This document shows positions 13,125 to 44,384 of a DNA stretch of 64,000 bases, in pieces (position 1 is the first letter of the stretch; every line of letters begins with the position of its first letter). The stretch lies in NCBI GenBank assembly GCA_027491155.1, contig JAIXWR010000037.1:1-64000 (forward strand), given 5' to 3'. The stretch comes from Verrucomicrobiaceae bacterium (GTDB taxonomy: Bacteria > Verrucomicrobiota > Verrucomicrobiia > Verrucomicrobiales > Akkermansiaceae). The position numbers were made by a program, and so were the translations under genes. The notes beneath the pieces are model-generated. The model worked only from the letters and a program-made list of their open reading frames with translations, made no database searches and had not been told where the DNA came from.

Positions 13125-15770
13125 ATGAAATCGATTGTCCGCCTGCTCCCCTGCCTCGCCCTCGCGCCTCTCGGCGCGGAACAGGTCAACCTCGTAAAGA
13201 AGGGAGAAGAGGCCTTCCAACTCTGGGGCTGCGCCACCTGCCATGCCGTCGACAAGGACGACGTCTCCATCAAATCGGGCCCGAGCCTCTACGACCTGTT
13301 CCAGACCGAGCCCCGCCAGCGCGAGGTGGCCGATGCCGGCGGCGTGAAGTCGAAGGTGGCGGCCGACAGGAATTACTTCATCGAGTCGGTGCGCCAACCG
13401 GCCGGCCGCCTGGCCGTCGCGGAGAAAGGCCCGACCACCGGCGAAGCCTACCCGCCGGTGATGCCGCAGTTCACCGCGGAGGTGGTTTCCGACGCCAATC
13501 TCGAGGCGATGTGGCACTTCCTCCGCCACGCCGCCGCCGAGGGCAAGAACGGCCCCGCGGTGGTGATGGGCGAGGTGAAGGCGGATGCCGTTCGCTCCGA
13601 CTTCGACAACCCGGCGGCCGTCGTGGTCGACCAGCGCCCGCGGGTGATCCGCGCCCCGCTGCCGAATGCCAGCGGCCGCGCGATCCACGTGGGATTGCCC
13701 AACGGCATGAACTACACCTTCGATCCCCGGCAACTCTCCCTGCGGAGCGTCTGGAGCGGCGGCTTCCTCAACCTGGAAAAGGAGCAGACGGGGCGCAGCA
13801 CCCCAGGTTCCGACCGCGGCCAGGGAGCGCGCGAGGTGCTGGATGCCAAGCCCGCGCTGGTGCCGCTGACCGCCGACGGAAAGCCCGTCGACTTCGAGTT
13901 CAAGGAGCCCGACGTCAACGACGACGCCGCGGTGATCCGCCACCTTGAGAAGGGCGGCGATTTCCTCAAGGAGCTGGCTTCGTGGGATGCCGGTTTCGAC
14001 GGCTACCGGCTCACCGAGACCGGCGCCCCCGAGTTCCTCTTTCACGTCGGCAAGAACCGCCTCGCCCAGCGGATCGGCTTCGCCGAGGACGGATCCCTGG
14101 TCATCGAGATCAGCGGCAAGCTGGCAACGCCCCAGGTGTTCCAGCTCCGCGATTCCGGCTGGAGCAAGCCGAAGGCGGACGGCGGCAAGCTCGAAGGCTC
14201 GCGTTGGACCCTCCCGGCCGGGGAGGGCAAGACCTACCGTCTGCAAGCCTCGACCGGCAGCCCGCTCGGCGCCCGCGCTCCCCTCCCGGTGAAGGAAAAC
14301 CTCGCGCCGCAACCCGCGGACAGCACCCCGGCGCAGGCCGACCTGCCCGCCGGCTACCGCATCGAGAACTGGATCGCCCCGAAGGACAGCTTCGGCCGCG
14401 AGCAACTCTTCGAGCCCACCGCCATGGCCGTCGCCAAGGATGGCACCCTCGTCGTCGGCACCCGCACCGCGGGCATCTGGCGCTGGAAGAACAACACCTG
14501 GCAGATGTTCGCCGAGGGCACCTACGAGTGCCTCGGCCTGGTCATCGAGGACGATGCGGCCAACACCATCGTCATCGCCCAGAAGCCCGAGCTCACGCGG
14601 CTCCGCGACCTGAACTCGGACGGCCGCGCCGATGCCTTTGAAACGGTCTGCGACGACTTCGGCTTCCACGGCAACTACCACGAATACACCCACGGACCGG
14701 TCCGCGACTCGGCGGGCAATTACCACTTCACCCTCAACCTTTGCCACGGCAAGAACGACCAGGCCTCCTATAAGGCGGGCGGGCAGTTCATGGGCAGCAT
14801 GGGCGGCTTCCGCGGATGGGCCTGCCGGGTCACCCCGGACGGCGTGTTCCAGCCCTACGCCAACGGCCTGCGAAGCCCCGCCGGGCTCGCCGCCGCTCCG
14901 GACGGCCGCATCGTTTACACGGAGAACCAGGGCGAATACGTCGGCTCCTCCAAGATCAGCTACCTCGTGGACGGCGGCTTCTACGGCCATCCCTCCGGCC
15001 TGGTCTCGCTGCCCGGCATGAAGCCCGGATCCCCCGAGATCGCCTTCGACCGCTGGAAGCCGAAGACGCACCTTCACGCGCTGTGGTTCCCCCACAACAA
15101 GCTCGCCAACTCGCCCGGCAGCCCGGCCTGGGATCTATCGGAAGGCAAGTTCGGCCCCTTCGCCGGCCAGATGTTCGTCGGCGACCAGACGCTCTCCACG
15201 CTGATGCGCGTGGCCTCGGAGCGGGTCGGCGATGTCGACCAGGGCACCATGATCCTCTTCGCCCGCAATCTCGCGTCCGGGATCATGCGGCCCTGCTTCC
15301 TGCCCGACGGCTCGCTGCTGCTCGGCCAGACCGGCCGCGGGTGGCAGGCCAAGGGCGGCAACAAGTCCGGCCTCCAGCGGATCGTCCACGATCCCGCGGT
15401 GACGCCCGCCGACATCCACTCGATCGCCACCCGCAAGTCCGGGTTCACCGTCCGCTTCACCGCGCCCCTCGCCGCATCGGTGACCGCGGAGTCCCTGCTG
15501 CCGAAGCTCAAGCTCGAGTCCTGGACCTACACCGATGCCGTGACCTACGGCTCCGGCGAGAATGAGAAGCGGAAGAACGAGATCGCCAAGGTCACCATCA
15601 GCGCCGACCGCAAGTCCGTCGATCTCGAGATCCCCGACTTCGCCAACCCGGCCGGGATCACACGGCGCATCCACCGCTTGCAGGTGAACGATGCGGCGCC
15701 GCTCTTCGACAAGGCCGCCAGCCGCCCGCTGCTGGAAGCCTATCAGACGGTCAACGCCCTGCCCGAGTAA
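13125..15770 (+). CDS. Exported cytochrome c fused to a sorbosone-dehydrogenase-like propeller
   Basis: This 881-residue protein starts with a signal peptide (MKSIVRLLPCLALAPLGAEQ). A monohaem cytochrome c domain follows, with CATCH at Cys36-Cys39-His40. Residues about 185-390 form a beta domain with the segment LPNGMNYTFDPRQLSLRSVW, which recurs at the C terminus of the multihaem cytochrome at 42.1-44.4 kb. From about 410 comes a beta-propeller of the glucose/sorbosone dehydrogenase-like type (LNSDGRADAFETV, HGNYHEYTHG, GLRSPAGLAAAPDGR). The likely role is periplasmic oxidation of a sugar or related compound with electron transfer to haem; substrate and cofactor are unknown. It is the first of three same-strand genes of related design. 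Confidence 0.82.
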   Translation: MKSIVRLLPCLALAPLGAEQVNLVKKGEEAFQLWGCATCHAVDKDDVSIKSGPSLYDLFQTEPRQREVADAGGVKSKVAADRNYFIESVRQPAGRLAVAEKGPTTGEAYPPVMPQFTAEVVSDANLEAMWHFLRHAAAEGKNGPAVVMGEVKADAVRSDFDNPAAVVVDQRPRVIRAPLPNASGRAIHVGLPNGMNYTFDPRQLSLRSVWSGGFLNLEKEQTGRSTPGSDRGQGAREVLDAKPALVPLTADGKPVDFEFKEPDVNDDAAVIRHLEKGGDFLKELASWDAGFDGYRLTETGAPEFLFHVGKNRLAQRIGFAEDGSLVIEISGKLATPQVFQLRDSGWSKPKADGGKLEGSRWTLPAGEGKTYRLQASTGSPLGARAPLPVKENLAPQPADSTPAQADLPAGYRIENWIAPKDSFGREQLFEPTAMAVAKDGTLVVGTRTAGIWRWKNNTWQMFAEGTYECLGLVIEDDAANTIVIAQKPELTRLRDLNSDGRADAFETVCDDFGFHGNYHEYTHGPVRDSAGNYHFTLNLCHGKNDQASYKAGGQFMGSMGGFRGWACRVTPDGVFQPYANGLRSPAGLAAAPDGRIVYTENQGEYVGSSKISYLVDGGFYGHPSGLVSLPGMKPGSPEIAFDRWKPKTHLHALWFPHNKLANSPGSPAWDLSEGKFGPFAGQMFVGDQTLSTLMRVASERVGDVDQGTMILFARNLASGIMRPCFLPDGSLLLGQTGRGWQAKGGNKSGLQRIVHDPAVTPADIHSIATRKSGFTVRFTAPLAASVTAESLLPKLKLESWTYTDAVTYGSGENEKRKNEIAKVTISADRKSVDLEIPDFANPAGITRRIHRLQVNDAAPLFDKAASRPLLEAYQTVNALPE

Positions 15771-15870
15771 CCGCCTCCCGTTCCGGCACCGTGACGGACC
15801 GCCGGACCGCGGATGAACCCGGCAGCATCGGGACGGCGGCCGGGCATCCCTTCACCGCCCGCTCGCACCC

Positions 15871-18800
15871 ATGAAACTGCCGCTCCTCCTCGCCTGCTCG
15901 CTCGTCACCACCGTGCTCGCGGAAATCCCGCGCGGCACCTTGCCTCTCGATGCACCCGAGTGGCCCGCCAACTACCGCCTGCACCTGAGCGGAGGCTCCC
16001 GGGTCGACTTCGGCGGCAAGCTGTCGCTGGACCTCAAGGCGGAGGATTCCCCGCACGACATCGCGGTCGAGCATCCGGCGGAAGGAGCTCCCCTGCTCCG
16101 CGTCTGGTCCGCCGGCAAGCTCGTGCGCGGCCCGGAGGCGGTCCCCGCGTTGAAGCATTCCAACGCCCTCGATTTTCCCGACGCCGCTCTCGACTTCGGC
16201 GGCGACTTCACCGCGAGGGTGTCCTTCGAAGCCGCGGGCGACGGCACCTTGTTCTCGATCTGCTCCCCCGATGGCAAGTGGTCGCCCGGATCGAAGGCCC
16301 TCTTCCTCCGCGGCGGCAAGCTGGTTTACGACATCGGCTGGCTCGGAGAGATCGGAGGAGGGCCGAAGGTGAACCATGGCAAGGCGCACACCGCCGTGCT
16401 GGTCGTCCGCAGCGGCACCGCCCGCCTGTTGCTCGATGGCAAGGTGATCGCCGAACAGGAGGGCTTCACCCGGCCCGACGAGAAAACCCATCGTTTCAAG
16501 GTGGGCCGCGCCACCGCCGACTTCGGCGGGGATTTCACCGATGGGAAGATCGGCAGCGTTCGCGTCTGGAAGCGGGCCCTGCCGGACGCGGAGATCGCCC
16601 TGCTGTTCAAGGATGGCGGCGCGGGAGCGAACACGCCGGACCTCAACCACACGCCGTCGGGCGGATCGAAACCGGTGGTGAAAGGCGGCAGCGGCTGGGT
16701 GCAGGCGCTGGAGCGCAGCGATCACGCGGAGATCGTCGGCAACTGGAACAAGGCGACGCTCGCCGAGGGCGAGAAGATCTACAAGACGCTCTGCGTCGTC
16801 TGCCACGGCACGAAGGAGGAACCCGGCTCCCTGCCCACCGCGCTGAGATTCGCGGATGGGCCATTCAAGAACGGCGCGGACCCGCATTCGATGTATCTCA
16901 CCCTGACCCAGGGCTACGGCCAGATGGTGGCGCAGCCGCAGTACACGACGGCCCAGAAATACGCCGTCATCCACTACATCCGCGAGGCCTTCCTCAAGCC
17001 GCACAATCCCTCCCAATACACCAAGCTCGACATCGCCTCGCTGCCACGCGGGCTCGCCAGCGCCGAAGAGGAAAAGGCGGACACCTCGCTCCCGCCCTAC
17101 CAGCGGATGGAACTGGGCAACACCTTGTCGTGGACCCTTCAGGTCGAGCCGGGAAACATCGCGCAGAAGGCGATCACCATCCGCCTCGACGACGGTCCCG
17201 GCGGTGTGACGAAGGGCCGCGCGTGGATGGTTTACGACCACGACACGATGCGCTTGGCCGCCGCGACCACCGGCTCGTTCGTGGATTGGAAAGGCATCGC
17301 CTTCGACGGCAGCCACGGCACGCATACCTCGCTCACCGGCGAGAAGCACCTCGTCCATCCCCCCGGCCCCGGCTGGGCGTCGCCGGAAGGAAAATGGGAG
17401 GATGACCAACGCGTGACCGGCAAGGACGGCAAGCGCTACGGTCCTCTGCCGGGCGAGTGGGCGAAGTTCGAAGGCGTCCATGAAAGCGGGAAGAACGTGG
17501 TGCTCTCCTACACGGTCGGCGGAGCGCGCGTGCTGGAATCGCCCGGCTGGGTCGATTACGGCGCGACGCCGATGTTCGTGCGCACCGTCAACGTCGGCGA
17601 GTCCAAGCAGCCGCTCCTTCTCCGGGTGGCTCCGGCGGCGATGAACGCGCTCGTCGAATCCAGTGCCTCCGCGGGAGGAGAGAGGACCACCTTCGAGCGC
17701 GAGAACGGGTTCTGGGTCGCAAGAATCCCTTCGGGCGTCATGGCGCGGTTCTTCTTCTCCAAAGTGGATGCCGCGTCGCTCGAGAAGCTTGCCCAAACCG
17801 TGGAGGCGCCCCTCGACCTCTCGCCTCTCACCAAGGGCGGCCCGGCGCGCTGGCCGCAGACGGTGACCACGACCTCGGTGGCCGGGGACGCGGACGGTGC
17901 CTTCATCGCGGACGAATTCCCGCTGCCGCTCGACAACCCCTTCCAAAGCTGGCTGCGACCCGGCGGCTTCGATTTCACGCCCGACGGCAAGGCGGCCATC
18001 GTGGCCATGTGGAACGGCGACGTGTGGCGCGTCGACGGCGTGATGCAGCCGGCACCCGCGACGCTCACCTGGCGGCGCATCGCGAGCGGTCTCTTCCAAC
18101 CGCTCGGCGTGAAGTTCCGTGGCAACGAGCTGTTCATCACCTGCCGCGACCAGATCGCGAAGCTTGTGGACCTCAATGGCGACGGCGAAACGGACTTCAC
18201 ACAGTGCTTCAACGGCGACGCGCAGGTCACCGAACACTTCCACGAATTCGCGATGGGCCTGCAGACCGATGCCGCGGGCAACTTCTACTACGCCAAATCC
18301 GCCCGCCATGCGCTGGACAGCGTGGTGCCGCATCACGGGACCCTGCTCAAGGTCAGCGCCGACGGCAGCCGCACCGACATCCTCGCCACCGGCTTCCGCG
18401 CCGCGAACGGCGTCTGCCTGAACGACGACGGCAGCTTCTTCGTCACGGACCAGGAAGGACACTGGACGCCGAAGAACCGCATCAACCGCGTGAAGGCGGG
18501 TGGCTTCTACGGCAACATGTACGGCTACTCGAACGTCACCGACAGCAACGACTCCGCGATGGAGCCGCCGATGGTCTGGATCACCAACGACAAGGACCGC
18601 AGCCCCGCGGAACTGCTGTGGGTGCCGAAGCAGGCATGGGGAAACCTCGGCGGCGCGCTGCTGAACCTCAGCTACGGCACGGGACGCGCCTTCATCGTGC
18701 CGCATGAGGAAATCGACGGCCGCATGCAGGGCGCGGTCTGCGAATTGCCGATGCCCGCCTTCGCCACCGGCATCATGCGCGGGCGCTTCGGTTCCGACGG

Positions 18801-19173
18801 CGCACTCTACACCTGCGGCATGTTCGCCTGGGCCGGCAACGCGACCTCGCCCGGCGGCTTCCACCGCATCCGCCGCGGCAGCGCCCCGGCCCGCGTGCCG
18901 CTGTCGGTCCGGGCCGCGAAAGGAAAACTCACGGTGGCTTTCAGCGACCCGCTCGACGACACCGCCTGCACCCTGAAGGTCTGGTCGCTCCAGCGCAGCG
19001 CGAAGTATGGCTCGCCGCACCACGACGAACGCGAGCTGGAAATCCGCGAGGTGAAGGCGAGCGCCGACCGCCGTAGCTTGACGCTCGAAGTCCCCGACCT
19101 CGCTCCGACCCAGTGCTACGAACTCCGGATCGGCGACCGCGTGCTGCACGGCACGATCCATGCCCTCCGCTGA
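15871..19173 (+). CDS. LamG-like + cytochrome c + DUF6797-like + propeller protein
   Basis: This 1100-residue exported protein has a signal peptide ending near VTTVLA. A concanavalin/LamG-like domain (about 85-245) has the usual features FTDGKIGSVRVWKRALPD. Then comes a cytochrome c domain with CVVCH (Cys308, Cys311, His312). A DUF6797-like domain follows (about 430-600; GRAWMVYDHDTMRLAAATTG), and a beta-propeller fills the C-terminal half (DLNGDGETDFTQCF, TEHFHEFAMGLQTDAAGN). The LamG domain suggests carbohydrate binding, so the protein may bring its haem and catalytic domain to a polymer. It lies 100 bp after a shorter relative and 29 bp before a DUF6288 gene, probably in one operon. The catalytic reaction is inferred, not shown. 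Confidence 0.82.
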   Translation: MKLPLLLACSLVTTVLAEIPRGTLPLDAPEWPANYRLHLSGGSRVDFGGKLSLDLKAEDSPHDIAVEHPAEGAPLLRVWSAGKLVRGPEAVPALKHSNALDFPDAALDFGGDFTARVSFEAAGDGTLFSICSPDGKWSPGSKALFLRGGKLVYDIGWLGEIGGGPKVNHGKAHTAVLVVRSGTARLLLDGKVIAEQEGFTRPDEKTHRFKVGRATADFGGDFTDGKIGSVRVWKRALPDAEIALLFKDGGAGANTPDLNHTPSGGSKPVVKGGSGWVQALERSDHAEIVGNWNKATLAEGEKIYKTLCVVCHGTKEEPGSLPTALRFADGPFKNGADPHSMYLTLTQGYGQMVAQPQYTTAQKYAVIHYIREAFLKPHNPSQYTKLDIASLPRGLASAEEEKADTSLPPYQRMELGNTLSWTLQVEPGNIAQKAITIRLDDGPGGVTKGRAWMVYDHDTMRLAAATTGSFVDWKGIAFDGSHGTHTSLTGEKHLVHPPGPGWASPEGKWEDDQRVTGKDGKRYGPLPGEWAKFEGVHESGKNVVLSYTVGGARVLESPGWVDYGATPMFVRTVNVGESKQPLLLRVAPAAMNALVESSASAGGERTTFERENGFWVARIPSGVMARFFFSKVDAASLEKLAQTVEAPLDLSPLTKGGPARWPQTVTTTSVAGDADGAFIADEFPLPLDNPFQSWLRPGGFDFTPDGKAAIVAMWNGDVWRVDGVMQPAPATLTWRRIASGLFQPLGVKFRGNELFITCRDQIAKLVDLNGDGETDFTQCFNGDAQVTEHFHEFAMGLQTDAAGNFYYAKSARHALDSVVPHHGTLLKVSADGSRTDILATGFRAANGVCLNDDGSFFVTDQEGHWTPKNRINRVKAGGFYGNMYGYSNVTDSNDSAMEPPMVWITNDKDRSPAELLWVPKQAWGNLGGALLNLSYGTGRAFIVPHEEIDGRMQGAVCELPMPAFATGIMRGRFGSDGALYTCGMFAWAGNATSPGGFHRIRRGSAPARVPLSVRAAKGKLTVAFSDPLDDTACTLKVWSLQRSAKYGSPHHDERELEIREVKASADRRSLTLEVPDLAPTQCYELRIGDRVLHGTIHALR

Positions 19174-19202
19174 TCCTCCGCCACTCCTTCACCGCTCTCA
19201 TC

Positions 19203-21605
19203 ATGATCCTTCGCTCCGAAACATCCGCCTTCGTCTGTTCGTTCTCGATCGCGGCACTGCTGGCAATTCCCGCCCCGGTCGACGCCGCGCCGAAGAACAC
19301 GATGGCGCTGCCGGATTTCACCAAGGGCGACGCCATCCCGGCCGAAGCGCGGCACGACTGGACCTTGGGTGCCACCGGTCTCCGCGGTTGGATCTACAGC
19401 AGCAAGCTGACCACCACCGATGCCCGCCAGATCGCTGTCACGCGGGTGGAGAAGGGCTCCCCGGCGGACGGCATCCTTGCGGTCGGCGACGTGATCCTCG
19501 GCGTCGCGGGCAAGCCTTTCTCGCATGACCCTCGGACCGAGTTCGGGAAGGCTCTCACCGCCGCCGAAAGCGATGCGGTGGGAGGCAAGCTCGCCCTCAC
19601 CCGCTGGCGGGCCGGCAAGACCGAGGAAGTCGCCGTCAAGCTGCCGGTGCTCGGAAGCTACGGCGCCACCGCGCCCTACGATTGCCCGAAGTCGAAGCGG
19701 ATCCTCGAACAGGGATGCAAGGCCTTGGCCGCGGCCATCAGCGCCCCGAACTATCGCCCGAACCCGATCTCGCGTTCGATGAACGCCCTCGCCCTGCTTG
19801 CCAGCGGCGACCCCGCCTACCTGCCGGTCATCAAGAAGGAAGTGGAATGGGCCGCGGGATATTCGGCCGACGGCTTCCAGACCTGGTACTACGGTTATGT
19901 GATTTCGCTGATCGCCGAATACAAGATGGCAACCGGCGACGAATCGGTGATGCCCGGCTTGAAACGCCTCGCGCTGGAGGCCGCGCACGGCCAGAGCGCG
20001 GTCGGCTCGTGGGGCCACAAGTTCGCACGGCCCGACGGCCGGCTCAGCGGCTACGGCATGATGAACGCTCCGGGAGTGCCGCTCACCATCTCGCTGGTGC
20101 TGGCCCGCGAGGCCGGCTTGAAGGATCCCGCCGTCGACAAGGCGATCGCCGCCAGCGCGCGCCTGCTGCGCTTCTACATCGGCAAGGGCGCCATCCCCTA
20201 CGGCGACCACCACCCCTGGACCCAGACCCACGAGGACAACGGCAAGTGCGGCATGGCCGCGGTGCTCTTCAACCTGTTAGGCGACAAGCAGGGCGCGGAA
20301 TTCTTCTCCCGCATGAGCGTGGCTTCCCACGGCGCGGAGCGCGACGGCGGCCATACCGGCAATTTCTGGAACATCCTGTGGTCCATGCCCGGAGTCGCCC
20401 AATCCGGACCCCGGGCCACCGGCGCGTGGATGGGCGAGTTCGGCGGCTGGTACTTCGACCTCGCCCGCCGCTGGGACGGCACCTTCCTGCACCAGGGTCC
20501 GCCGGAAATGAACAACGACAAGACCGCCGGCTGGGACGCCAGCGGCGGCTACCTGCTTGCCTACGCGATGCCCCTCAGGAAGCTGCGCCTGACCGGCAAG
20601 CTTCCCGGAGTCGCACCGCAGATCGATGCCGCCACCGCGAAGTCGCTGATCCTCGACGGCCGCGGTTGGAGCAACAAGGACCGCAACAGCGCCTACGACG
20701 CGCTCGGGCCCGAACCGCTGTTCGAAGCGCTCGGAAGCTGGTCGCCCGTCGTCCGCGAGCGCGCCGCGATGGCGATCGCCCGCCGCAAGGGCGAGCCGCC
20801 GGTCGCGGCACTGGTGAAACTGCTCGACTCGCCGACGCTCGACGCCCGCTACGGCGCTTGCGAGGCGCTGATCCAGCTCAAGGCGGCCGCAGCCCCGGCC
20901 GTGCCGGCTCTGGCGAAACTGCTGGATCACCAGGACCTCTGGCTGCGCGTCAAGGCTGCCGAGGCGCTCGCAAGCATCGGCAAGCCCGCCATGTCCACCG
21001 TGCCCGCCTTGCTCCAGCGCATCGCACTGCCGCCTTCGGAATCCGATCCGCGCGGCATGGAGCAGCGCTTCCTCTGCTTCGCCGTGTTCGGGCAAATGCT
21101 CAAGCACTCGCTCGAGGGTGTCGATCCGGACCTCCTCCGCAAGGCGGTGGTCGCCGGGCTGAAGAACGAGGACGGCCGCGCCCGCGGCGAGGTCGGCGCC
21201 GTCTATCAGAAGCTGAGCTACGAGCAGATCAAACCCCTGCTCCCCGCGATCCGCGAAGCCATCGTCACGCCCGCTCCCAGCGGCGAGATGTTCGCCAGCG
21301 GCATCCGCCTGCTCGGCTGCGAACTCCTGGCCAAGCACCGGATCCGCGAGGGGATGGAACTGAGCCTCGACGTGATGGAGATCGACCAATGGGGCAAGGC
21401 CACCCGCATCGACCGCTGCCTGAAGGTCATCGCGATGTACGGCGGCGCGGCCAAGCCGCTGCTGCCGCGGCTGCGCCAGCTCGAGAAGGACCTCACGGCC
21501 CACGGCGAGGCGAAGAACCTGAAACCGAAGATCGACAGCCTGCGCACCATCATTGGCAACATCGAGACCAGCACGGAGAGCCCCGAACTCCGCAGCCTCG
21601 ATTGA
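19203..21605 (+). CDS. Secreted DUF6288 protein with PDZ and HEAT-like repeats
   Basis: This 800-residue protein begins with a signal peptide (start 19203, MILRSETSAFV; cleavage near PVDAA). A PDZ-like domain (about 55-135; VEKGSPADGILAVGDVILGV) precedes an alpha-helical domain rich in Trp, Gly and His (about 150-470; HGQSAVGSWGHKFARPDG, GDHHPWTQTHEDNGKCGMA), resembling an alpha/alpha toroid. HEAT-like repeats make up about 500-650 (DARYGACEALIQLKAAAAPA). I match it to DUF6288 from memory; no activity is known to me. A close full-length paralogue lies at 37031-39442, also last in a cytochrome/propeller block, so a shared role with those proteins is likely. It converges on the giant PATR gene. 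Confidence 0.75.
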   Translation: MILRSETSAFVCSFSIAALLAIPAPVDAAPKNTMALPDFTKGDAIPAEARHDWTLGATGLRGWIYSSKLTTTDARQIAVTRVEKGSPADGILAVGDVILGVAGKPFSHDPRTEFGKALTAAESDAVGGKLALTRWRAGKTEEVAVKLPVLGSYGATAPYDCPKSKRILEQGCKALAAAISAPNYRPNPISRSMNALALLASGDPAYLPVIKKEVEWAAGYSADGFQTWYYGYVISLIAEYKMATGDESVMPGLKRLALEAAHGQSAVGSWGHKFARPDGRLSGYGMMNAPGVPLTISLVLAREAGLKDPAVDKAIAASARLLRFYIGKGAIPYGDHHPWTQTHEDNGKCGMAAVLFNLLGDKQGAEFFSRMSVASHGAERDGGHTGNFWNILWSMPGVAQSGPRATGAWMGEFGGWYFDLARRWDGTFLHQGPPEMNNDKTAGWDASGGYLLAYAMPLRKLRLTGKLPGVAPQIDAATAKSLILDGRGWSNKDRNSAYDALGPEPLFEALGSWSPVVRERAAMAIARRKGEPPVAALVKLLDSPTLDARYGACEALIQLKAAAAPAVPALAKLLDHQDLWLRVKAAEALASIGKPAMSTVPALLQRIALPPSESDPRGMEQRFLCFAVFGQMLKHSLEGVDPDLLRKAVVAGLKNEDGRARGEVGAVYQKLSYEQIKPLLPAIREAIVTPAPSGEMFASGIRLLGCELLAKHRIREGMELSLDVMEIDQWGKATRIDRCLKVIAMYGGAAKPLLPRLRQLEKDLTAHGEAKNLKPKIDSLRTIIGNIETSTESPELRSLD

Positions 21606-27028: not shown

Positions 27029-27047
27029 AGGGGTTTTGGGGTTCTGA

Positions 27048-27068
27048 CGGAGTCCGGGCATGACTCCG
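27048..27068. repeat. Inverted repeat in the PATR1 leader
   Basis: CGGAGTC (27048-27054) and GACTCCG (27062-27068) are perfect 7-bp arms with a 7-nt loop, 20-40 bp upstream of the PATR1 ATG on the minus strand. It could form an mRNA leader hairpin or be an operator. Confidence 0.4.
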
Positions 27069-27094
27069 CTACTAGACGAACCAAATGATGCGGG

Positions 27095-27118
27095 AAGTGG
27101 CAAGAGGGAATGCCACTT
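27095..27118. terminator. Hairpin between esterase 1 and PATR1
   Basis: AAGTGGCA (27095-27102) and TGCCACTT (27111-27118) are perfect 8-bp arms with an 8-nt loop. On the minus strand it lies 43 bp past the stop of esterase 1, so it may be its terminator; there is no T tract, and an operator for PATR1 is equally possible. Confidence 0.4.
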
Positions 27119-28456: not shown

Positions 28457-28545
28457 GAGCGTGGATTCGATTGCGGCCGCTGCGGGCGCGAGATTTGAAG
28501 GAGCTCGATCGCTACCGGGGCGCCCCGCGGGTTCCTTCACACGGA

Positions 28546-28574
28546 TCGCGCAAAACAACCGTCGATTTGCGCCA
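28546..28574. promoter_or_regulatory. Regulon operator site B
   Basis: TCGCGCAAA (28546-28554), 11-bp spacer, TTTGCGCCA (28566-28574), 90 bp upstream of esterase 1. The direct-repeat cores GCGCAA (28548) and GCGCCA (28569) are 21 bp apart, as in site A. The arms share a perfect GCGCAAA/TTTGCGC dyad. The dyad spacer is one base longer than in sites A, C and D. Confidence 0.6.
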
Positions 28575-35768: not shown

Positions 35769-35929
35769 ATGAATGAATTTCACTCCGGCCGACTGTGACC
35801 GATCGGGATACAGATGAATTCCCGCATTCAGCCGTCGGCAGGTCCGCCGAGCCCATCGTCCCCGCTGCCGCTCCAGGCGGAGCTTTCCCTCTGGACACCT
35901 GTAACCCGAAGGAACATAGATCCCACCGA

Positions 35930-37006: not shown

Positions 37007-37030
37007 GATCCCCCGCCCTCTCGTAGGCGG

Positions 37031-39442
37031 TCACTTGAGGGAGATCAGCTCCGGAAGTTCGGTCGAAGCCTCGATGGCCACGATGGTTTCCCGGACGCAC
37101 TGGGCTTTCTTCAGCATCAGGTGCTTCGGAAAGTTCTTTTCGTCCTTCTCGAAGTAATCCGCCAGCTTTCGCAACTCCGGCACCACCGCCTTCGCATGGC
37201 CGCCGTAGGTGAGCAGGATCTTCATCAGTTCGGGCGTCCGGTTCTCGCTCGACCACGGGTTCTGCTCGCGGGTGTATTTCACGCAAGCCGCGATGCCCTC
37301 GCGGATCCGGTGCTGGGCCAGCAGGCGGAGGCCTTCGACGCGGATCTGGTCGGCGAACATCTCGCCGCTCGGTGCGGGCACCTCGACCGCCTCGAGCACC
37401 GCCGGCAGCAGGGGCTCGATGTCCTGGAAGGAAAGGTTCCGGTAAACGGAGCCGATGCTTCCGCGGGCGCGGCCGTCCTGGTTGCGGAGACCGGCGCGCA
37501 CCGCCTTGGCCAGGGCCGCGCGGTCGACGCCCTCCAGCGAGCGGCCGAGCAGTCCCCCGCCCTGCTCGAACAAGGCGAAGCACAGGTAACGCTGCTGCAT
37601 GCCGCGCGGGTCCTTCACGGGATCGCTCGCGACCAGCAATTCCAGCAACTCCGGCACGGCCATCATCGCCGGAGCGCCGATCCGGGAGAGCGCCTCGGCG
37701 GCCTCAACCCGCAGCCAGAGATCCTCGTGGCGCAGGGATTTCCGCAAGGCTTCCACCGCCGGTGCCGCCCGCCCGCGAAGGGCGGCGAGGGCCTGGCAGG
37801 CGCCGTAGCGCGCATGGAGGGACCCGGACTCGAGCATCCGGACCAAAGCCGTCACGGGAACTTCCTTGCGGCGGGACAGGGCGGTGGCGGCGCGGTCGCG
37901 GACCACCGGCGACCAGCTCGCGAGGCATTCGAGGAGTTGGTCGGGCCCCAGCTTGTCATAGGCACTGTGGCGGTCCTTGTTGTCCCACCCGCGGCCGTCC
38001 ATGATCAGGGCGCGGGCCGCCGCGGCATCGAGCTGCGGGGCCTTGCTCTTCCGCTTTCCGGTGAGGTGGATCTTCTGGAGCGGCATGGCCAGCGCGAGCA
38101 GGTAGCCGCCGCTGCAATCCCATCCGTTGTAGCTGTCGGGATTCGGTTCAGGCGGGCCCTGGTGCAGGAAGCTGCCGTCCCAGCGCCGCGTGAGGTCGAA
38201 ATACCAACCGCCGAACTCGCCCATCCACGCACCGGTGGCCTGGGGACCGGAGCGCGCCACGCCGGGCATCGCCCAGAGCATGTTGAAGTAGTTTCCGGTG
38301 TGCCCGCAGTCGCGCTCCGCGCCGTGCGAAGCGACGCTCATCCGGGTAAAGAATTCCACACCCTCCTCCTCGTTCAGCAGGTCGAACAGGACCGCCGCCA
38401 TGCCGCACTTGCCGTTGTCGTCGTGGGTCTCGATCCACGCGTCGTGGTCGCCGTAGGGCACCGCGCCCTTGCCGATGTAGAAGCGCATCAGCTTCGCGCT
38501 GAGATCGATGGCGCGGTCGATCGCCGGATCCTTCACGCCCGCCCCGCGGGCCATCACCAGGGAAATCGTCAGCGGCAGCCCGGGGGAATTCATCATCCCG
38601 TAACCGCCGAGACGGCCGTCGGGCAGGGCGAAGCCGTGGCCCCAGGAGCCCACCGCGCTCTGGCCATGGGCAGCTTCAAGGGCGAGGCGCTTGAGCCCCG
38701 GCATCACCGACTGGTCCCCGGTGGCCATCACGTATTCGGCGACCAGCATCGTGACGTAGCCGTAGTACCAGGTCTCCATCGAGTCCGTCTTGAATGCCGC
38801 CGCCCATTCCGCCTCCTTCTTCACCAGCGGCAGGTGCGCGGGGTCTCCTCCGGCAAGCAGCGCGAGGGCGTTGACCGCGCGGGGAATAGGATTGAGACCG
38901 CGGCCGTAATCGGGAGCCGCCATGCGCGCGGCCAGCGACTTGAGCCCGAGCTCGAGCACGCGGCGCGACTTGGGGCAATCGTAGGGCGCGGTGGCGCTGT
39001 AGCTGCCGAGCACCGGCAGTTTCACCACCGCTTCCTCCGTCTTGCCGGCCCGCCAGCGGGTCAGGGCGAGCTTGCCGGCACCGGCCTCCGACTCGGCGGC
39101 GGTGAGCGCTTTGCCGAACTCGGTCCGCGGGTCCCGCGAGAAGGGCTTGCCGCCGACGCCGAGGATCACGTCGCCGACCTCGAGCACCCCGGCCGCGGGC
39201 GATCCGGGCTCCACCTTGGTGATGCGGATCTGGCGGGCGTCGGTGGTGACCATCTTGTCGGAGAACATCCAGCCGCGCGCGCCGGTGGCCCCGAGGTTCC
39301 AGTCATGGGTCGCCCCGGCGGGTATGGCGTCGCCCTTGGTGAAATCGGGCATGGCGATGGGCCCGCCGCCGCCCGCGGCGAGGGCAAGGCGGGGCGTGCA
39401 GAGCAAGAGGGCCAGGCCCAGAGGAAGAATCGCGGTTTTCAT
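37031..39442 (-). CDS. Secreted DUF6288 protein, paralogue of the one at 19.2-21.6 kb
   Basis: This 803-residue protein has a signal peptide (MKTAILPLGLALLLCTPRLA). It is collinear with the 19.2-kb paralogue: a PDZ-like domain (VEPGSPAAGVLEVGDVILGV), the Trp/Gly/His-rich helical domain (HGQSAVGSWGHGFALPDG, GDHDAWIETHDDNGKCGMA) and HEAT-like repeats (HARYGACQALAALRG). Strong identity over the whole length points to a block duplication, because both copies end a run that contains cytochrome and propeller domains. The start lies four bases after the stop of esterase 3, so it is probably translated in one operon with it. No enzymatic activity can be assigned. Confidence 0.75.
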   Translation of the reverse strand: MKTAILPLGLALLLCTPRLALAAGGGGPIAMPDFTKGDAIPAGATHDWNLGATGARGWMFSDKMVTTDARQIRITKVEPGSPAAGVLEVGDVILGVGGKPFSRDPRTEFGKALTAAESEAGAGKLALTRWRAGKTEEAVVKLPVLGSYSATAPYDCPKSRRVLELGLKSLAARMAAPDYGRGLNPIPRAVNALALLAGGDPAHLPLVKKEAEWAAAFKTDSMETWYYGYVTMLVAEYVMATGDQSVMPGLKRLALEAAHGQSAVGSWGHGFALPDGRLGGYGMMNSPGLPLTISLVMARGAGVKDPAIDRAIDLSAKLMRFYIGKGAVPYGDHDAWIETHDDNGKCGMAAVLFDLLNEEEGVEFFTRMSVASHGAERDCGHTGNYFNMLWAMPGVARSGPQATGAWMGEFGGWYFDLTRRWDGSFLHQGPPEPNPDSYNGWDCSGGYLLALAMPLQKIHLTGKRKSKAPQLDAAAARALIMDGRGWDNKDRHSAYDKLGPDQLLECLASWSPVVRDRAATALSRRKEVPVTALVRMLESGSLHARYGACQALAALRGRAAPAVEALRKSLRHEDLWLRVEAAEALSRIGAPAMMAVPELLELLVASDPVKDPRGMQQRYLCFALFEQGGGLLGRSLEGVDRAALAKAVRAGLRNQDGRARGSIGSVYRNLSFQDIEPLLPAVLEAVEVPAPSGEMFADQIRVEGLRLLAQHRIREGIAACVKYTREQNPWSSENRTPELMKILLTYGGHAKAVVPELRKLADYFEKDEKNFPKHLMLKKAQCVRETIVAIEASTELPELISLK

Positions 39443-39446
39443 AAAT

Positions 39447-40652
39447 TCATGGCTTTGTTTTGCGGAGTCCGGTCATCCCCTCGGCGAGGCCCTTGCCGAT
39501 GCCACCGAGGATCTTCGCCGAGCCGAGGTAGTGGAATTCCATGTTGGAAATGCCCTTTTCGAGGATCACGCGCTCGCGCTCCGTGAGCCGTTCCAGGCGC
39601 AGGTTCTCGAAGGCCGCCTTCTCCTCGGCGGGCTTGAGCTTGGCGGCGGCCGCGGCCTTGCGGGCCTCCTGCTTGAGCGCGTTGTCCTTGGCCTTCGCGG
39701 CGCTGAGCTCGGCGTCCCAGTATTTCTCCGTCAGGACGGCGGCGACGTTGCCTTTGAACTCCGGCAGTTTCGCCGGGGCGGCCATCGCGTTGCGGAAGTT
39801 GTCGTGGGTGGCCTTGTAGCGCTGCTCGGCCGGGCCGTATTCCGAGGTCGGTCCGCCGACGCCCAGCACCCCGATCACGAAGGGAAGCTGCGGGGCCTTC
39901 AGGTCCTTGCGGACGTCGCGGATGAAATGCGCCATGGCCGTACTATAGGCATCGTAGCCGCCGGGCTTGTCGCGCTGCGGATAAGTGCCGCCGTCCACCA
40001 TGTCGTTCCAGCCCTGGAACCAGGCGAAGCCGGCCAGCTCGTAGCCCTGCGCGGCATCGTATTCCGGGACCACCCGCTTGATGTCGCCGAGCACCTTCCG
40101 CACGTGGTCGATCATTTTCCGATAGTAGACCCCGGTCTGCCTCTCCTTCTCCGCCTGGATCGCGGCGACGTCCTTGCCCTGCTTCGCGAACTGGGCAAGC
40201 TGGGCCTCGGAAAACGGGTAGGGTCCGGCGGAGGGCGGGCGGAAGTCGGTGTTGAGACTCTTGCCGCCCCAGGCGGTCTTGATCAGCAGGATGGGCGCGT
40301 CGGTGGACTTCTCCATGTAGATGCCGAAGGTGAATTCCGGTCCGATCTTCGGCCCGCCCTGCCCCGCGCCGAAGCCGGCGGTGAGCTTGCCGGTCTTTTC
40401 CTCCGACTCGTCCGCCCCGCAGCCGAGCGCGGAGATCCAGACCCGATCGCAGACTCTCGGCGTCCCGTCGTCGTTCGTCATTTCGTCGAACATCGGCTTG
40501 GTGGCCGGGTCCATGCCGACGTGCTCGATCGTGCGGACCTGGGCATGGCCCTGCATGTTCGATTGGCCGGCGAGGATGTAGACCTGCAAGGGTTTCGCGG
40601 CGAGCGGCGAAAGCAGCGCCAGCAGCGTGATCAGTTTGAGGAAAGTTTTCAT
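39447..40652 (-). CDS. SASA-family esterase (esterase 3)
   Basis: This 401-residue exported protein has a signal peptide (MKTFLKLITLLALLSPLAA) followed at once by the SGNH/SASA motif GQSNMQG (Ser31). The core includes IGPEFTFGIYMEKSTDAPIL and GFAWFQGWNDMV, typical of PVC sialate O-acetylesterase-like proteins, and the predicted catalytic His in MEFHYLGSAKI. A Lys/Glu/Ala-rich helical insertion (about 310-360; possible coiled coil) sets it apart from esterases 1 and 2. It probably deacetylates an extracytoplasmic glycan. It is 16 bp after the propeller gene and 4 bp before the DUF6288 gene. Confidence 0.82.
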   Translation of the reverse strand: MKTFLKLITLLALLSPLAAKPLQVYILAGQSNMQGHAQVRTIEHVGMDPATKPMFDEMTNDDGTPRVCDRVWISALGCGADESEEKTGKLTAGFGAGQGGPKIGPEFTFGIYMEKSTDAPILLIKTAWGGKSLNTDFRPPSAGPYPFSEAQLAQFAKQGKDVAAIQAEKERQTGVYYRKMIDHVRKVLGDIKRVVPEYDAAQGYELAGFAWFQGWNDMVDGGTYPQRDKPGGYDAYSTAMAHFIRDVRKDLKAPQLPFVIGVLGVGGPTSEYGPAEQRYKATHDNFRNAMAAPAKLPEFKGNVAAVLTEKYWDAELSAAKAKDNALKQEARKAAAAAKLKPAEEKAAFENLRLERLTERERVILEKGISNMEFHYLGSAKILGGIGKGLAEGMTGLRKTKP

Positions 40653-40668
40653 CGGTGGGGTTGGAAGC

Positions 40669-42144
40669 TCACGGCTTGGGGATTTCGTTGAGCGTGTAAT
40701 AGGCGCGGTCGTGGAGAATCATCTCGCCGTCGCGCGATTTGAAGGATGGCAGGTGGAAATCATGGATGTGACCTTGCACCAGCCCCTTCACCCGCAGGCG
40801 CACGCTCAAGCCGTCGGGCGCGAGTTCGGCGGCGGTGACGGACGGCGTCGTGTGATCGACCTCGGGGCTGCCGTAACCCTGTTGATAGATGTGGGTGTAG
40901 GTCTGGAGCTTGTAGCTTTCCGGATTCGCCGCCACCGAGGCATCGGCCGGGCGGGTGAAACGGACGACGAAGCCGTCCGACTGCGCGCGGATGTCGCGGA
41001 TCTCGAAGGGCACGCGTCCGGTCCACTCGAGGCGTTCGAGCAGGTTGTCCTTCATGCCGCGGACCGGCCAGCCGCGGTTGGTGCCGCCGGTGATCAGCTT
41101 GCCGTCGGCCATGAAGTGCAGCGACAGCAAGCCGGTGCCGAGTCCTTCGCGGAAGGGATAACACGCGCCCTGCCAGACGCCGTTGATCTTCTCGGTGGTG
41201 GCGCGCATCAGGATGCTCAGCGTGTAGTCGCCGACGAAGATCTGGCCGTCGAAGGGGCCGAACTTCCCGCCCGCCCGGCAGACCTCGAAGCCGGAGATCG
41301 AGCGGCCCATCTTCTTGTAGGGAAAGACCACCGCGTAGGGCACCAGTTCCTTCACCCGCTTGCGCTCGATCTCCATCCGCGACGGCGAGTTCGGCATCAC
41401 CGGGGCCGGCCCCATGTTCGGGGCGTCGGGATACCAGTTGAAGCTGATGGGATGCCCCATGAAGCCGCCGGGCTTGAGATGCTTGAGCGAACACGAGCCG
41501 TTCCAAGGGCCCTGGCTTTCGACGTAGAACATCTCGCCGTGCTCGTTTGCCCCCACGCCGAGCGGACTGCGCAGGCCGCTGCAGATCGGCACGGTCTCGC
41601 CCTGCGGCGTGATCTTGAGCGCCCAGCCGCGGAACAGCGCCTTGGAGTTGTAGGACTCCGAAAGGCCGAGCGCGACGTAGAGGTTGCCGTCCGCGTCGAA
41701 CTTCGAGCCGAGCGCGTATTCGTGGTAATGGCCGAAGCCCCAGGCATCGCTCACCGTGTCGAAGCGATCCGCACGGCCGTCGCCGTCGCTGTCCGCGATC
41801 CGGGTCACCTCGGTGGCATGCGTGGCATAAAAGGCGCCGTCGCGCCAGGCCAGGCCGAGCACCTCGTCGAGGCCGCTGGCGAAGGTGGTGATGACCGGCT
41901 TGGGACGTTCCTCCCCCAGCCCGCTGAACAGCAGGATCTCGCCGCGGCGGGTGCCGACCGCGAGCCTTCCGTCGGGCAGGGAATCGAAGCTGCCCGCCTC
42001 GACGTAAACGCCTTTCGGCATCGGGATGTCGACGAGGCGGTAGTAGGCGGACTCGCGTTCCGCGGTGCCCCAGGTGTCGCCGAATTCCTCCGCGACCGCG
42101 GACCACGGGAGGAGGCAAAGCAGGATGGAGAAGCGGCGCTTCAT
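40669..42144 (-). CDS. Exported sorbosone-dehydrogenase-like beta-propeller protein
   Basis: This 491-residue protein has a signal peptide (MKRRFSILLCLLPWSAVAEE) and a single propeller domain homologous to the C-terminal halves of the fusion proteins at 13.1 and 15.9 kb. Shared features are DGDGRADRFDTVSDAWGF, HYHEYALGSKFDADGN and GLRSPLGVGANEHGE. It has no haem motif of its own. Its ATG overlaps the stop of the multihaem cytochrome gene by four bases (ATGA), so the two are translationally coupled. This split pair matches the fused arrangement elsewhere in the window and supports direct cooperation of haem and propeller domains. The reaction is probably oxidation of a sugar or aldehyde; cofactor unknown. 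Confidence 0.82.
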   Translation of the reverse strand: MKRRFSILLCLLPWSAVAEEFGDTWGTAERESAYYRLVDIPMPKGVYVEAGSFDSLPDGRLAVGTRRGEILLFSGLGEERPKPVITTFASGLDEVLGLAWRDGAFYATHATEVTRIADSDGDGRADRFDTVSDAWGFGHYHEYALGSKFDADGNLYVALGLSESYNSKALFRGWALKITPQGETVPICSGLRSPLGVGANEHGEMFYVESQGPWNGSCSLKHLKPGGFMGHPISFNWYPDAPNMGPAPVMPNSPSRMEIERKRVKELVPYAVVFPYKKMGRSISGFEVCRAGGKFGPFDGQIFVGDYTLSILMRATTEKINGVWQGACYPFREGLGTGLLSLHFMADGKLITGGTNRGWPVRGMKDNLLERLEWTGRVPFEIRDIRAQSDGFVVRFTRPADASVAANPESYKLQTYTHIYQQGYGSPEVDHTTPSVTAAELAPDGLSVRLRVKGLVQGHIHDFHLPSFKSRDGEMILHDRAYYTLNEIPKP

Positions 42145-44384
42145 GACGGGTTGATGAAATGGTATTCGAGTTTCATTTCCGGGGCGGCCGGAAGGAGGAG
42201 TTCCTTGCCGGCGCCGGTGTCGCGCAGCAGCAGGGGCGGTGCGGCACGGATGAGGAGCTTCTTGCCGACGACGAACTCGTTCGCGCCGCGCGGCTCGATC
42301 GACGGGTCCGCGGCCGCCCGGAAGTGAAGCCCGGCCGGCGGCGATGCGATGCGGAGGGTCCGCTCGAAGTAGAGCTTCCCGGCTTCGTCGCGCTTTTCGA
42401 CGATCGCGTCTTCCACGCTATAGTCACCCGGTGCGTAGCGGAAGACCGGGCGGCGGCGGGCATCGAGGTGGTAGCCTTTGAAGGAAGGCTTGCCGGCTGC
42501 CGCCGCGGGCCATGGATCGGCGGGCGCGGCGAGCACCGCGAAGGCGGGGCCTGGCGGAAGTTGGACGGGAGCCTCGCCCAGCAGGCGCGCCTGGCCGGAG
42601 CCCTGGCCGCGCCAGAGCCCGGAGGCCTCGATGAAGCCGCCGCTCCACAGGGTGGCCAGCCGCATCTGCGTGGCGTCGAAAGCGAGATTGATGCCGCCGG
42701 GATAGCCGACGCCGATGCCCCGCTTGCCGATGCCCGGGAAGGCGCGGCGCACGATCACCGGCTCGTCCTTCACCTCGATGACCAGCGGCTCCAGCACGAG
42801 CCCCGCGGGTTCGCCGGCCTCGGGGCCTCGAGAGAGATACTGCCAGATCGCATCGCGCTGCCGGCCGGGATCGCCGCCGAGGATGTCGGGCTGCGTCGAC
42901 TTTCCATCGGGCCAGAAGCCGGGCATCACGATGAGCGGGACGAAGCGCTGCGGCTGCGCGAGGAAATGGTGGAACCAGTTCTCCTCGAGCCGCTCGGTCA
43001 TGGTGGTGAGCTCCGGCCCGGGAATCGCCGCGCTGCGGCCGCGGAAGGTGTGGCAGGCGATGCAATTCAGTCCTTTAGCCCCCAACATTTCCCGGCCGAC
43101 CTGGTCCGGCTTGTCGGCCTTCGTCACGCGCTCGAAGGGCATCGGCGGCAGCGTGTCGATCTGCTTCAGCCACTCCGCGAGTCCCTGCGTGTTCGCCGCG
43201 CCGAACTTCGGCATCCGGGTGTTCATCGCCGTCCTCACCCCGCCGCCGTTGGCGAGCACCTCGCGCAGCCACTCGGCCTTGAGCTTCGCACCGACGCCGG
43301 TCAGCCCCGGCGGGATCCGGCCTTGTTCGCCGAGGCTCTCATGGCGGCCGGTGAAATACGGATTCCGATCGGCCGCGATGCCACCCAGTTCGCCTCGCTG
43401 GTGGCAGGCGATGCAATTCATGCGGGTCAGCGTGAGGCCGATCTTCTCCTCGGGTTCCCAAGCCCTATCCTGCTCCCCGAGCGCCGCCTTCAACGACGAC
43501 CGCTGCTCCTCCGAAAAGGGATAATGCGGCCACGCGCCGGGCTTGGCCGAAAGGCAGCCCTCGCCGCCGCGCAGCTTATCCAAGGGTGGAAGGTTCAGGG
43601 CGGCGGGCTTCTCGCCGGTCTCGTGGCAGGCGTCGCAGCGGTGCTGCTTGAAGAGCGACTTGCCGCGCTCCGCGAGGGCGGCATCCGGCTTCATGAACTC
43701 CACCGCAACCTGCTGCGCGCGGAGCAGATAGCTCGCGATGTCGTCGGCCTCGAAGGAGTCCAGATGGCTGTCCGGCATGCGGCCGGACGGACGCGCTGCA
43801 AGCGGGTCCTGAAGGAAGGCGCTGAGGCTCGCCACCGAATACTTCGCCTCGAGCGGTCCCAGCGGCACCGATCCGTCGAGGGGCTTCTCCGGCGAGTGGC
43901 AGGCGACACACCCAACCGAATGATACAACTTCTCCCCGCGTTCGACCGCCTCGCTGGCGGGTGGCGCGGACACCGGCGGCGTGCCGAGGCTTGCCAGGTA
44001 GTGCGCGATCGCCTTCGCCGTTTCCTCCCGCTCCACCTCAGGCAGGTGGGCCAGCACGTCGGGCATCGTCGTGCCGGGTTTCACGGTCGAAGGACTCGCG
44101 ATGTAGGCCCTCAGGTGATCACCATTCGCCCGCGACCCGATCGCCGAAAGGTTGGGTCCTGCTTTCGGCGCGAAGGCCTCGCGGGTGGTCGAGTGGCAGG
44201 CCGCGCAGGCCAGTTCACCCGCAAGGACCGCTCCGGCGAAACGGTCGGCTCCCGCGTGATGGAGCCCTCCAATGACGGGAGGTTCCGCCGCCGCAAGGGT
44301 CGGAACAGCGAGCGCGAACAAGAGCAAGCCGCGCAGGGCGGAAAGGAAGCTCGGGGTGAGGGATTTCGTGATCTCTTGAGTCAT
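42141..44384 (-). CDS. Multihaem cytochrome c with C-terminal beta domain
   Basis: This 747-residue exported protein has a hydrophobic signal (about 17-32) and five CxxCH haem motifs in order: CAACH (Cys60), CVACH (about 157), CDACH (about 252), CIACH in CIACHQRGE (about 326) and CIACH in CIACHTFRG (about 443). The C terminus (about 560-747) has YPGGINLAFDATQMRLATLW, which matches the beta domain between cytochrome and propeller in the 13.1-kb protein. It probably carries electrons from the coupled propeller protein (ATGA overlap) to the respiratory chain. It begins a run of four genes: cytochrome, propeller, esterase 3, DUF6288. The haem count is read directly; the electron path is inferred. 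Confidence 0.85.
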   Translation of the reverse strand: MTQEITKSLTPSFLSALRGLLLFALAVPTLAAAEPPVIGGLHHAGADRFAGAVLAGELACAACHSTTREAFAPKAGPNLSAIGSRANGDHLRAYIASPSTVKPGTTMPDVLAHLPEVEREETAKAIAHYLASLGTPPVSAPPASEAVERGEKLYHSVGCVACHSPEKPLDGSVPLGPLEAKYSVASLSAFLQDPLAARPSGRMPDSHLDSFEADDIASYLLRAQQVAVEFMKPDAALAERGKSLFKQHRCDACHETGEKPAALNLPPLDKLRGGEGCLSAKPGAWPHYPFSEEQRSSLKAALGEQDRAWEPEEKIGLTLTRMNCIACHQRGELGGIAADRNPYFTGRHESLGEQGRIPPGLTGVGAKLKAEWLREVLANGGGVRTAMNTRMPKFGAANTQGLAEWLKQIDTLPPMPFERVTKADKPDQVGREMLGAKGLNCIACHTFRGRSAAIPGPELTTMTERLEENWFHHFLAQPQRFVPLIVMPGFWPDGKSTQPDILGGDPGRQRDAIWQYLSRGPEAGEPAGLVLEPLVIEVKDEPVIVRRAFPGIGKRGIGVGYPGGINLAFDATQMRLATLWSGGFIEASGLWRGQGSGQARLLGEAPVQLPPGPAFAVLAAPADPWPAAAAGKPSFKGYHLDARRRPVFRYAPGDYSVEDAIVEKRDEAGKLYFERTLRIASPPAGLHFRAAADPSIEPRGANEFVVGKKLLIRAAPPLLLRDTGAGKELLLPAAPEMKLEYHFINPS

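Follow-up and report, generated by a model that had tools for sequence, protein, structure and literature searches.

The soluble sugar dehydrogenases that depend on pyrroloquinoline quinone (PQQ), such as sGDH and Asd/YliI, have a propeller fold and an arginine in contact with the cofactor. In the fungal enzyme CcPDH, of the AA8-AA12(-CBM1) type, a cytochrome domain is joined to a sugar-oxidising PQQ propeller and a carbohydrate-binding extra, an outline similar to that of the proteins described here; its description (PMC6881789) gives Arg430, conserved in sGDH and Asd, and also Asn431 as residues that contact PQQ. Many cytochrome genes of unknown purpose are present in the Planctomycetes-Verrucomicrobia-Chlamydiae (PVC) bacteria. 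The PVC-type heme-binding CxxCH proteins (TIGR02604/TIGR02603, DUF7133) combine a propeller with a c-type haem domain, and the PSCyt/PSD proteins with DUF1552 are likewise PVC cytochromes found near sulfatases, some with carbohydrate-binding domains, about whose PSCyt functions nothing is known according to He et al. 2017 (PMC5615132). Here we describe a window of 64,000 nucleotides, the whole stretch analysed (contig JAIXWR010000037.1 of a Verrucomicrobiaceae bacterium), which contains two genes, F1 and F2, and a gene pair, CYT and PROP, where a c-type cytochrome, a beta domain of the DUF6797 family and a propeller recur together. We propose, with a probability of about 0.6, that F1, F2 and CYT/PROP are versions of one periplasmic module, a dehydrogenase for sugars or glycosides whose electron carrier can be exchanged.

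The genes and domains concerned are the following.

13125..15770, + strand: F1, single chain of cytochrome c1, DUF6797, propeller and C-terminal beta domain, 881 residues, with a signal-peptide-like start (profile matches and AlphaFold2 (AF2) model)
13230..13244, + strand: F1 haem motif CATCH, residues 36-40 of 881, the sole CXXCH of F1
13635..14159, + strand: F1 DUF6797-type beta domain (sequence and profile comparison)
14316..15398, + strand: F1 propeller, spanning residues ~398-758; structure comparison places it nearest to PQQ-type sugar dehydrogenases
15399..15767, + strand: F1 C-terminal beta domain with a YGS motif, common to F1 and PROP
15871..19173, + strand: F2, single chain of LamG region, cytochrome c1, DUF6797, propeller and C-terminal beta domain (profile matches)
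16348..16599, + strand: F2 Laminin_G_3 match, residues 160-243
16756..16980, + strand: F2 cytochrome c domain, residues 296-370
17155..17643, + strand: F2 DUF6797 domain (Pfam and profile)
17848..19170, + strand: F2 propeller and C-terminal domain (sequence comparison)
40669..42144, - strand: PROP, separate propeller with C-terminal beta domain and its own signal-peptide-like start, as judged by eye; it overlaps CYT at an ATGA
42141..44384, - strand: CYT, five-haem cytochrome c with DUF6797 at its end (profile matches and AF2 model)
42243..42764, - strand: CYT DUF6797 domain (Pfam), a probable galactose-mutarotase-like sandwich in the model, on moderate evidence

An earlier note, made from the sequence alone, had described two genes each encoding cytochrome c and propeller in one chain and followed by a DUF6288 gene, and a second block with a five-haem cytochrome, a propeller gene overlapping it by 4 bp, an esterase and DUF6288. 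Pfam matches and CXXCH motifs bore out the first arrangement (F1, F2 and the DUF6288 gene D1), and the second was found as described (CYT, PROP, a SASA-family esterase and the DUF6288 gene D2). The Cytochrom_C match of F1 (23.0 bits) passes the Pfam cut-off of 21.3, and in F2 both Cytochrome_CBB3 (28.9 bits, cut-off 27) and DUF6797 (PF20601; 102.5 bits, cut-off 24.9) pass. The DUF6797 match of CYT passes as well (25.7 bits), while that of F1, at 14.5 bits, is under the cut-off and its domain still matches the one that ends CYT, with 30% identity over 129 residues (E 3e-10), in agreement with the equivalence proposed in the note. The beta domain of F2, which the note had not mentioned, is more typical than that of F1. 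All propeller matches in Pfam, of DUF7133/SGL type in F1, are under the cut-offs in F1 and F2. In pairwise alignment PROP is 34% identical to F1 (E 6e-67) and 24% identical to F2 (E 3e-28), so that the similarity of the split pair to the fusions is significant. The two fusions share the C-terminal beta domain and differ in the N-terminal LamG region, found in F2 only. A sequencing artefact is an unlikely cause of the split between CYT and PROP, because PROP has its own secretion start and many relatives are equally split.

The carriers of the two blocks differ, with one haem in F1 and in F2 and five in CYT, whose CXXCH motifs lie at residues 60, 159, 250, 324 and 441. A Met partner is conserved, in 26-27 of 27 alignment rows, for four of these five haems. 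For the third haem (residues 250-277) no conserved Met was noted, and a Cys located 23 residues past the haem His is invariant in 27 of 27 rows; from the alignment, this Cys is possibly an unusual ligand or part of a disulfide.

A profile of five propellers and a profile of 25 DUF6797 domains were searched against the same 288 genomes of the phylum. Each matched 24 genomes, and the two lists, compared by eye, were identical; as these genomes belong to 15 of 151 genera, they do not represent independent draws. Few places per genome were scored in the propeller survey (five in most), and the numbers of modules per genome are thus lower bounds. Loci of Planctomycetota and Bacteroidota were also found among named records. 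The module set, gathered by propeller similarity alone, was made of named records, loci of the window's own genome and 80 fetched regions; 120 modules were assembled and 117 were kept, after the fragments L049 and L204 and L025, a protein of the canonical type, had been dropped. In the window's own genome (5.7 Mb, 46 contigs) seven module loci are present, F1, F2 and the split pair included, no two of which are alike in build, and the DUF6797 profile likewise gave seven places. The other four loci, all split, have the following layouts.

L020: cyt1-PA14-DUF6797 / propeller
L022: cyt1-DUF6797 / propeller, with a 4-base overlap of start and stop
L021: DUF6797-cyt1 / propeller
L023: DUF6797-propeller / PA14-like-cyt5

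Six more weak matches in this genome have the look of canonical PVC-type proteins, their haem motif lying close to the C-terminus. In G234, another genome, the propeller at locus L161, which belongs to the copper-rich clade, has no adjoining DUF6797 and the strongest DUF6797 match of the genome lies on another contig, which is possibly an unlinked pair.

An electron carrier was present in the module for 108 of the 117 full-length propellers (one-haem cytochrome in 58, five-haem in 36, cupredoxin in 10, two-haem in 4), which agrees with the expectation of the earlier note that propeller homologues occur beside cytochromes elsewhere. In the 80 fetched regions a carrier was found in 74 of 79 modules, and a cytochrome match in only 1 of 535 other genes, as called by a crude GC-based gene caller. 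Carrier calls were based on a CXXCH in the open frames of the module or on a profile match; some one-haem calls have a CXXCH and no cytochrome profile match (L061, L214, L216, L219, L185 and L194, for example), and those of L059 and L198 depend on a haem gene adjoining the module.

Both arrangements, which the note had suggested should be looked for in other genomes, occur in many of them, joined and split. The most frequent is the split form in which a carrier-DUF6797 chain accompanies a separate propeller (69 of 117). The other split forms are DUF6797-propeller / cyt5 (7), DUF6797 / propeller-carrier (7) and DUF6797-cyt / propeller (5), giving a total of 88 in four kinds. All three parts are in one chain in 15 modules, with the carrier first in 14 and last in 1; one module has a cyt5-propeller chain where DUF6797 was undetected, and 13 are incomplete. 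Both types of five-haem split module have one-chain counterparts, L056 and L058 with the carrier first and L209 with the carrier last. This pattern of the Rosetta-stone type, as read from the sequences, supports the conclusion that cytochrome, DUF6797 and propeller form one conserved set, joined or split.

The carrier itself is exchanged. In L041, L156, L158 and L159 an azurin-like Copper-bind domain precedes DUF6797 in partners that contain no CXXCH (Pfam), and a profile made from these four domains detected the cupredoxin of L160 and L162. L053 and the one-chain L180 also have a cupredoxin before DUF6797 (Pfam), L052 has it at the C-terminus of the propeller, and the copper call of L035, a fragment at a contig edge, depends on the cupredoxin profile only. 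The Copper-bind family (PF00127) scored 28.0-45.1 bits in the 12 proteins matched, over its cut-off of 21.2, and matches to the azurin equivalog TIGR02695 were under the cut-off of that model. A PHN...CTFPGH...M pattern is kept with small variations and corresponds to the azurin-type H..C..H..M, residues that we take to be type 1 copper ligands. Because unrelated carriers occupy one slot, this slot would serve electron transfer, and this is the strongest evidence that the sequences provide. A role of the haem as catalyst, as in a peroxidase, was rejected, since copper replaces haem in 10 of the 117 modules.

The descent of the joined and split forms was then inspected on a propeller tree. F1 lies in a fused clade of five rows, within a clade of ten that also holds split pairs; F2 lies in a fused clade of seven rows, within a clade of 18 that also holds the DUF6797-propeller / cyt5 group; and PROP lies among split five-haem pairs. 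Among the loci fetched, F1 is closest to a fused gene (65% over 882 amino acids), F2 likewise to a fused gene (73%) and PROP to a split five-haem pair (68%). For the tests that follow, 8 further rows were dropped (long branches, near duplicates or unclear cases), leaving 109. The joined or split state requires at least 5 changes on the tree (100 rows), with respect to 13-16 in 100 label shuffles, and the copper or haem state at least 5 (102 rows), with respect to 7-9. A single clade of all 16 fused rows was rejected by the approximately unbiased (AU) test (p-AU 3.75e-11), on a quick tree and with the fused group defined by architecture, though the first tree was already known when the test was made. 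What was directly observed comprises the homologies, the joint occurrence of the parts, their permuted linkage orders, the recurrent changes between joined and split forms and the replacement of haem by copper.

These results bear on the idea that a block was recently duplicated inside the window and inverted, with a fused gene being split or a split pair joined. The DUF6288 genes D1 and D2 are 66% identical and the two blocks have opposite orientation, as such an event would leave them, but F1, F2 and PROP fall in three clades, and the identities of PROP to F1 and F2 (34% and 24%) are below the 65-73% that each of the three shares with a relative of its own architecture in another genome. We consider this origin highly improbable; a local duplication followed by fission was rejected on the same grounds and on the AU test. 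The picture of the earlier note, in which the window holds mirror-image fused and fissioned versions of one pair, is not borne out.

Within genomes, propeller distances and DUF6797 distances are correlated (r 0.61; 108 modules, 125 pairs, 22 genomes); when partners were shuffled within genomes the mean was 0.13, and none of 2000 shuffles reached the observed value. This agreement is expected if the pairs were inherited together, and linkage alone would give the same. It may then be asked whether the parts have no more in common than their regulation, as periplasmic proteins of a locus for polysaccharide use, and are adjacent or fused owing to shared expression and not to contact. The window is in fact rich in genes that would suit such a locus (a sulfatase, esterases, DUF1552/PSD genes and sugar-sensor regulators), but shared expression would hardly account for the at least 5 changes between joined and split forms, the several linkage orders, the occurrence in the same 24 genomes and the retained pairing, and neither DUF6288 nor SASA, which were tested as further neighbours, is co-inherited with the set. 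We regard this explanation as quite unlikely. The earlier note had concluded that the domains physically cooperate: the co-occurrence, permuted linkage and exchange of carriers strongly support cooperation, and physical contact is what we infer from it.

The class of the propeller was examined by modelling. The AF2 model of F1 (111 rows; mean predicted local distance difference test score, pLDDT, 83.5; predicted template modelling score, pTM, 0.82) is confident over residues ~160-881. In comparisons of its propeller with solved structures (Foldseek and VIA), each of the 16 top VIA entries was a sugar dehydrogenase belonging to the PQQ fold class (sGDH, Asd, AA12), at Z 27.1-29.2, several of them being repeats of one protein, the Acinetobacter enzyme; the next class reached Z 23.9. 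Searched by sequence against solved structures, the propeller profile matched short stretches only, for the most part in designed Pizza propellers and in those of NHL type. A profile comparison with E. coli YliI, in which the template was a single sequence, gave a probability of 89% (E 2e-6) and aligned the PQQ-contacting Arg, which is present in 107 of 108 propellers and which, in our reading of the motif, would be Arg430 of CcPDH.

The AF2 model of CYT (27 rows, pLDDT 87.9, pTM 0.74) was used for DUF6797. VIA matched the domain, at Z 9-11, with sandwich domains found in PL33, heparinase, Man38, GalM and LacZ, and DUF6797 is thus probably a galactose-mutarotase-like beta-sandwich, a fold name that is of this analysis. 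A sequence search with CYT against solved structures gave one marginal cytochrome only, and a literature search on DUF6797 found nothing. Other domains accompany the set. Among the 117 modules, 13 carry a 3-keto-disaccharide hydrolase-like domain within their chains (for the fetched regions, 8 of 79) and 10 others have one next to them, with respect to 4 of 537 other called genes in the fetched regions; the profile used was built from three module proteins, and Pfam itself named the domain in L159, L045 and L202. PA14-like domains are found in 44 of the 117 modules. DUF1080, a family considered below, is presumably the present-day PF06439.

On the basis of these data, the proposed dehydrogenase module would have three parts, namely a propeller in the fold class of the soluble PQQ sugar dehydrogenases, with its C-terminal beta domain, DUF6797, and a one-electron carrier. 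The propeller would oxidise a sugar or glycoside, its electrons would pass to the carrier and then to the respiratory chain, and DUF6797 would hold the carrier against the propeller. The carrier slot could take a cytochrome c with one, two or five haems, or else an azurin-like cupredoxin, and the parts may form a single chain or two, since it is their association alone that would matter. For this module the catalytic activity, the substrate and cofactor, the way electrons flow and the direct contact of the parts are all inferred. A more specific version, in which the modules are a widespread family of glycoside dehydrogenases with the PQQ-dehydrogenase fold that use another or a scavenged cofactor instead of self-made PQQ, the keto-sugars being cleaved by the attached 3-keto-disaccharide hydrolase domains and unrelated plug-in carriers docking via DUF6797, is offered as tentative and doubtful.

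Several observations weigh against the dehydrogenase module. The Pfam family GSDH (PF07995) scores 11.1 bits on F1, under the cut-off of 25, and has no match at E<=1 on PROP and F2; among the relatives, L058 reaches 24.9 and L180 19.4 bits. The position of the second PQQ-contacting residue, Asn431 in CcPDH, is occupied by Ser in 77, Ala in 19, Met in 7 and Asn in 1 of 108 propellers. H141 of PROP is kept in 105 of 108, yet the YliI alignment is gapped there and the placement of the catalytic His (sGDH His144, CcPDH His363) is uncertain. In the 288-genome survey, pqqE was over its cut-off in 0 of the 24 module genomes. Carriers were undetected for 9 of the 117 propellers. Confidence is low where the F1 model covers the cytochrome, the 10-residue means being mostly 30-70, too low to support a distance between haem and pocket. 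For DUF6797, Foldseek on the CYT model gave no match at E<=0.001, so that the fold assignment depends on VIA, where the matches are moderate and the top row is YidC (Z 11.3). As to the substrate, a planctomycete study proposes that DUF1080 proteins are glycosidases for xanthan (PMC5673643). Finally, the co-inheritance of adjacent genes is no proof of contact. The fold and the Arg agree with the PQQ family and the Asn and the Pfam score do not, so that on sequence and model membership in this family is questionable; PQQ as the cofactor is uncertain, as it would need to be imported, or another cofactor used. The six genomes of the 288 in which pqqE was over its cut-off all belong to one family (f4), and none has the module.

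The lack of pqqE would also suit a propeller that is a lactonase, of the SMP-30/gluconolactonase type, or a ligand-binding scaffold, the carriers being a separate electron wire to a substrate or surface. SGL matches F1 (E 0.011) and F2 (E 0.053), under its cut-off, and lactonase and NHL propellers match the F1 model at Z 22-24. The 16 sugar dehydrogenases score higher, exceeding the best lactonase by 3 Z units or more, and a hydrolase would need none of the carriers that accompany 108 of 117 propellers and are swapped between haem and copper. We thus find a lactonase or scaffold unlikely. The direction of electron flow could also be reversed, with the carrier supplying reductant for the propeller, or for some oxygenase that is not part of the module. 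The sequences are compatible with this direction, and the title of one paper points to the reduction of bacterial lytic polysaccharide monooxygenases by c-type cytochromes (PMC8981238). The closest folds, however, are dehydrogenases, and the Met partner at 4 of the 5 CYT haems resembles that of ordinary class I cytochromes of high potential, as far as a potential can be predicted in this way, so that we judge reverse flow very unlikely.

The remaining features of the window are neighbours of the two blocks.

10176-11357, - strand: AraC-type regulator with Peripla_BP_3
19203..21605, + strand: D1, DUF6288 protein (PDZ, DUF6288 and HEAT), with an alternative GTG start possible at 19113
21692-27103, 30122-32821 and 32898-35684, - strand: three large open reading frames with passenger-associated-transport repeats (PATR), autotransporter-like
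27161-28558 and 28601-30013, - strand: SASA esterase genes, interleaved with the PATR-repeat frames
35795..37006, + strand: GntR-type regulator with a Peripla_BP_3 sensor, divergent from the split operon
37031..39442, - strand: D2, DUF6288 protein, 66% identical to D1
39447..40652, - strand: SASA-family carbohydrate esterase (Pfam), with a signal-peptide-like start
44544-48436 and 48433-52957, - strand: two tandem DUF1552 and PSCyt/PSD gene pairs, directly upstream of the split block

One Peripla_BP_3 regulator, of AraC or GntR type, is thus found near each block. D1 (531.7 bits) and D2 (521.5 bits) both pass the DUF6288 cut-off (PF19805, 26.3 bits). The earlier note had counted DUF6288 as a part common to both arrangements, a view that does not hold elsewhere: in a survey scoring at most six places per genome, 4 of 57 DUF6288 places, among the matches listed and compared by eye, are at <=10 kb from a listed propeller or DUF6797 place. 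DUF6288 and SASA were both rejected as regular module parts, since among L020-L109, L140-L219 and the window the DUF6288 profile matched only the two window genes and L218, and the SASA profile matched window genes only.

A carrier in which haem can be replaced by copper argues that the haems of these PVC cytochromes serve electron transfer and not haem chemistry. The sugar-dehydrogenase fold, the mutarotase-like domain and, in some modules, the keto-sugar hydrolase-like domains would together point to an oxidative breakdown of sugars alongside glycoside hydrolases. The module idea is directly testable in one protein, the single-chain F1.

With respect to the known systems, the PSCyt/PSD proteins are built of different domains, and their genes adjoin the split block and lie outside the module. 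The PVC-type heme-binding CxxCH proteins have a related propeller; F1, F2 and PROP score 28.8, 31.0 and 39.7 bits with TIGR02604, far under its cut-off of 122.2. In that family the propeller comes first and the haem is near the C-terminus, whereas in F1 and F2 the haem precedes the propeller and PROP has none; the members examined were unmatched by the first DUF6797 profile. Some TIGR02604 proteins above the cut-off carry a C-terminal azurin-like domain in place of the expected haem (L093:6543-10091, L098:6936-10454, L103:6957-10499 and L075:675-4628), and ThuA is also present in L093, L098 and L103, not in L075. The propellers described here are like the soluble PQQ sugar dehydrogenases in their fold and PQQ Arg, and differ from them in the Asn that is not kept, in the GSDH cut-off that is missed, in the carrier and DUF6797 that nearly always accompany them and in genomes that lack pqqE. 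CcPDH, at 12-14% identity over the aligned model, has a b-type AA8 cytochrome where the module has a c-type cytochrome or a copper domain, and its published domain plan contains no DUF6797 (PMC6881789).

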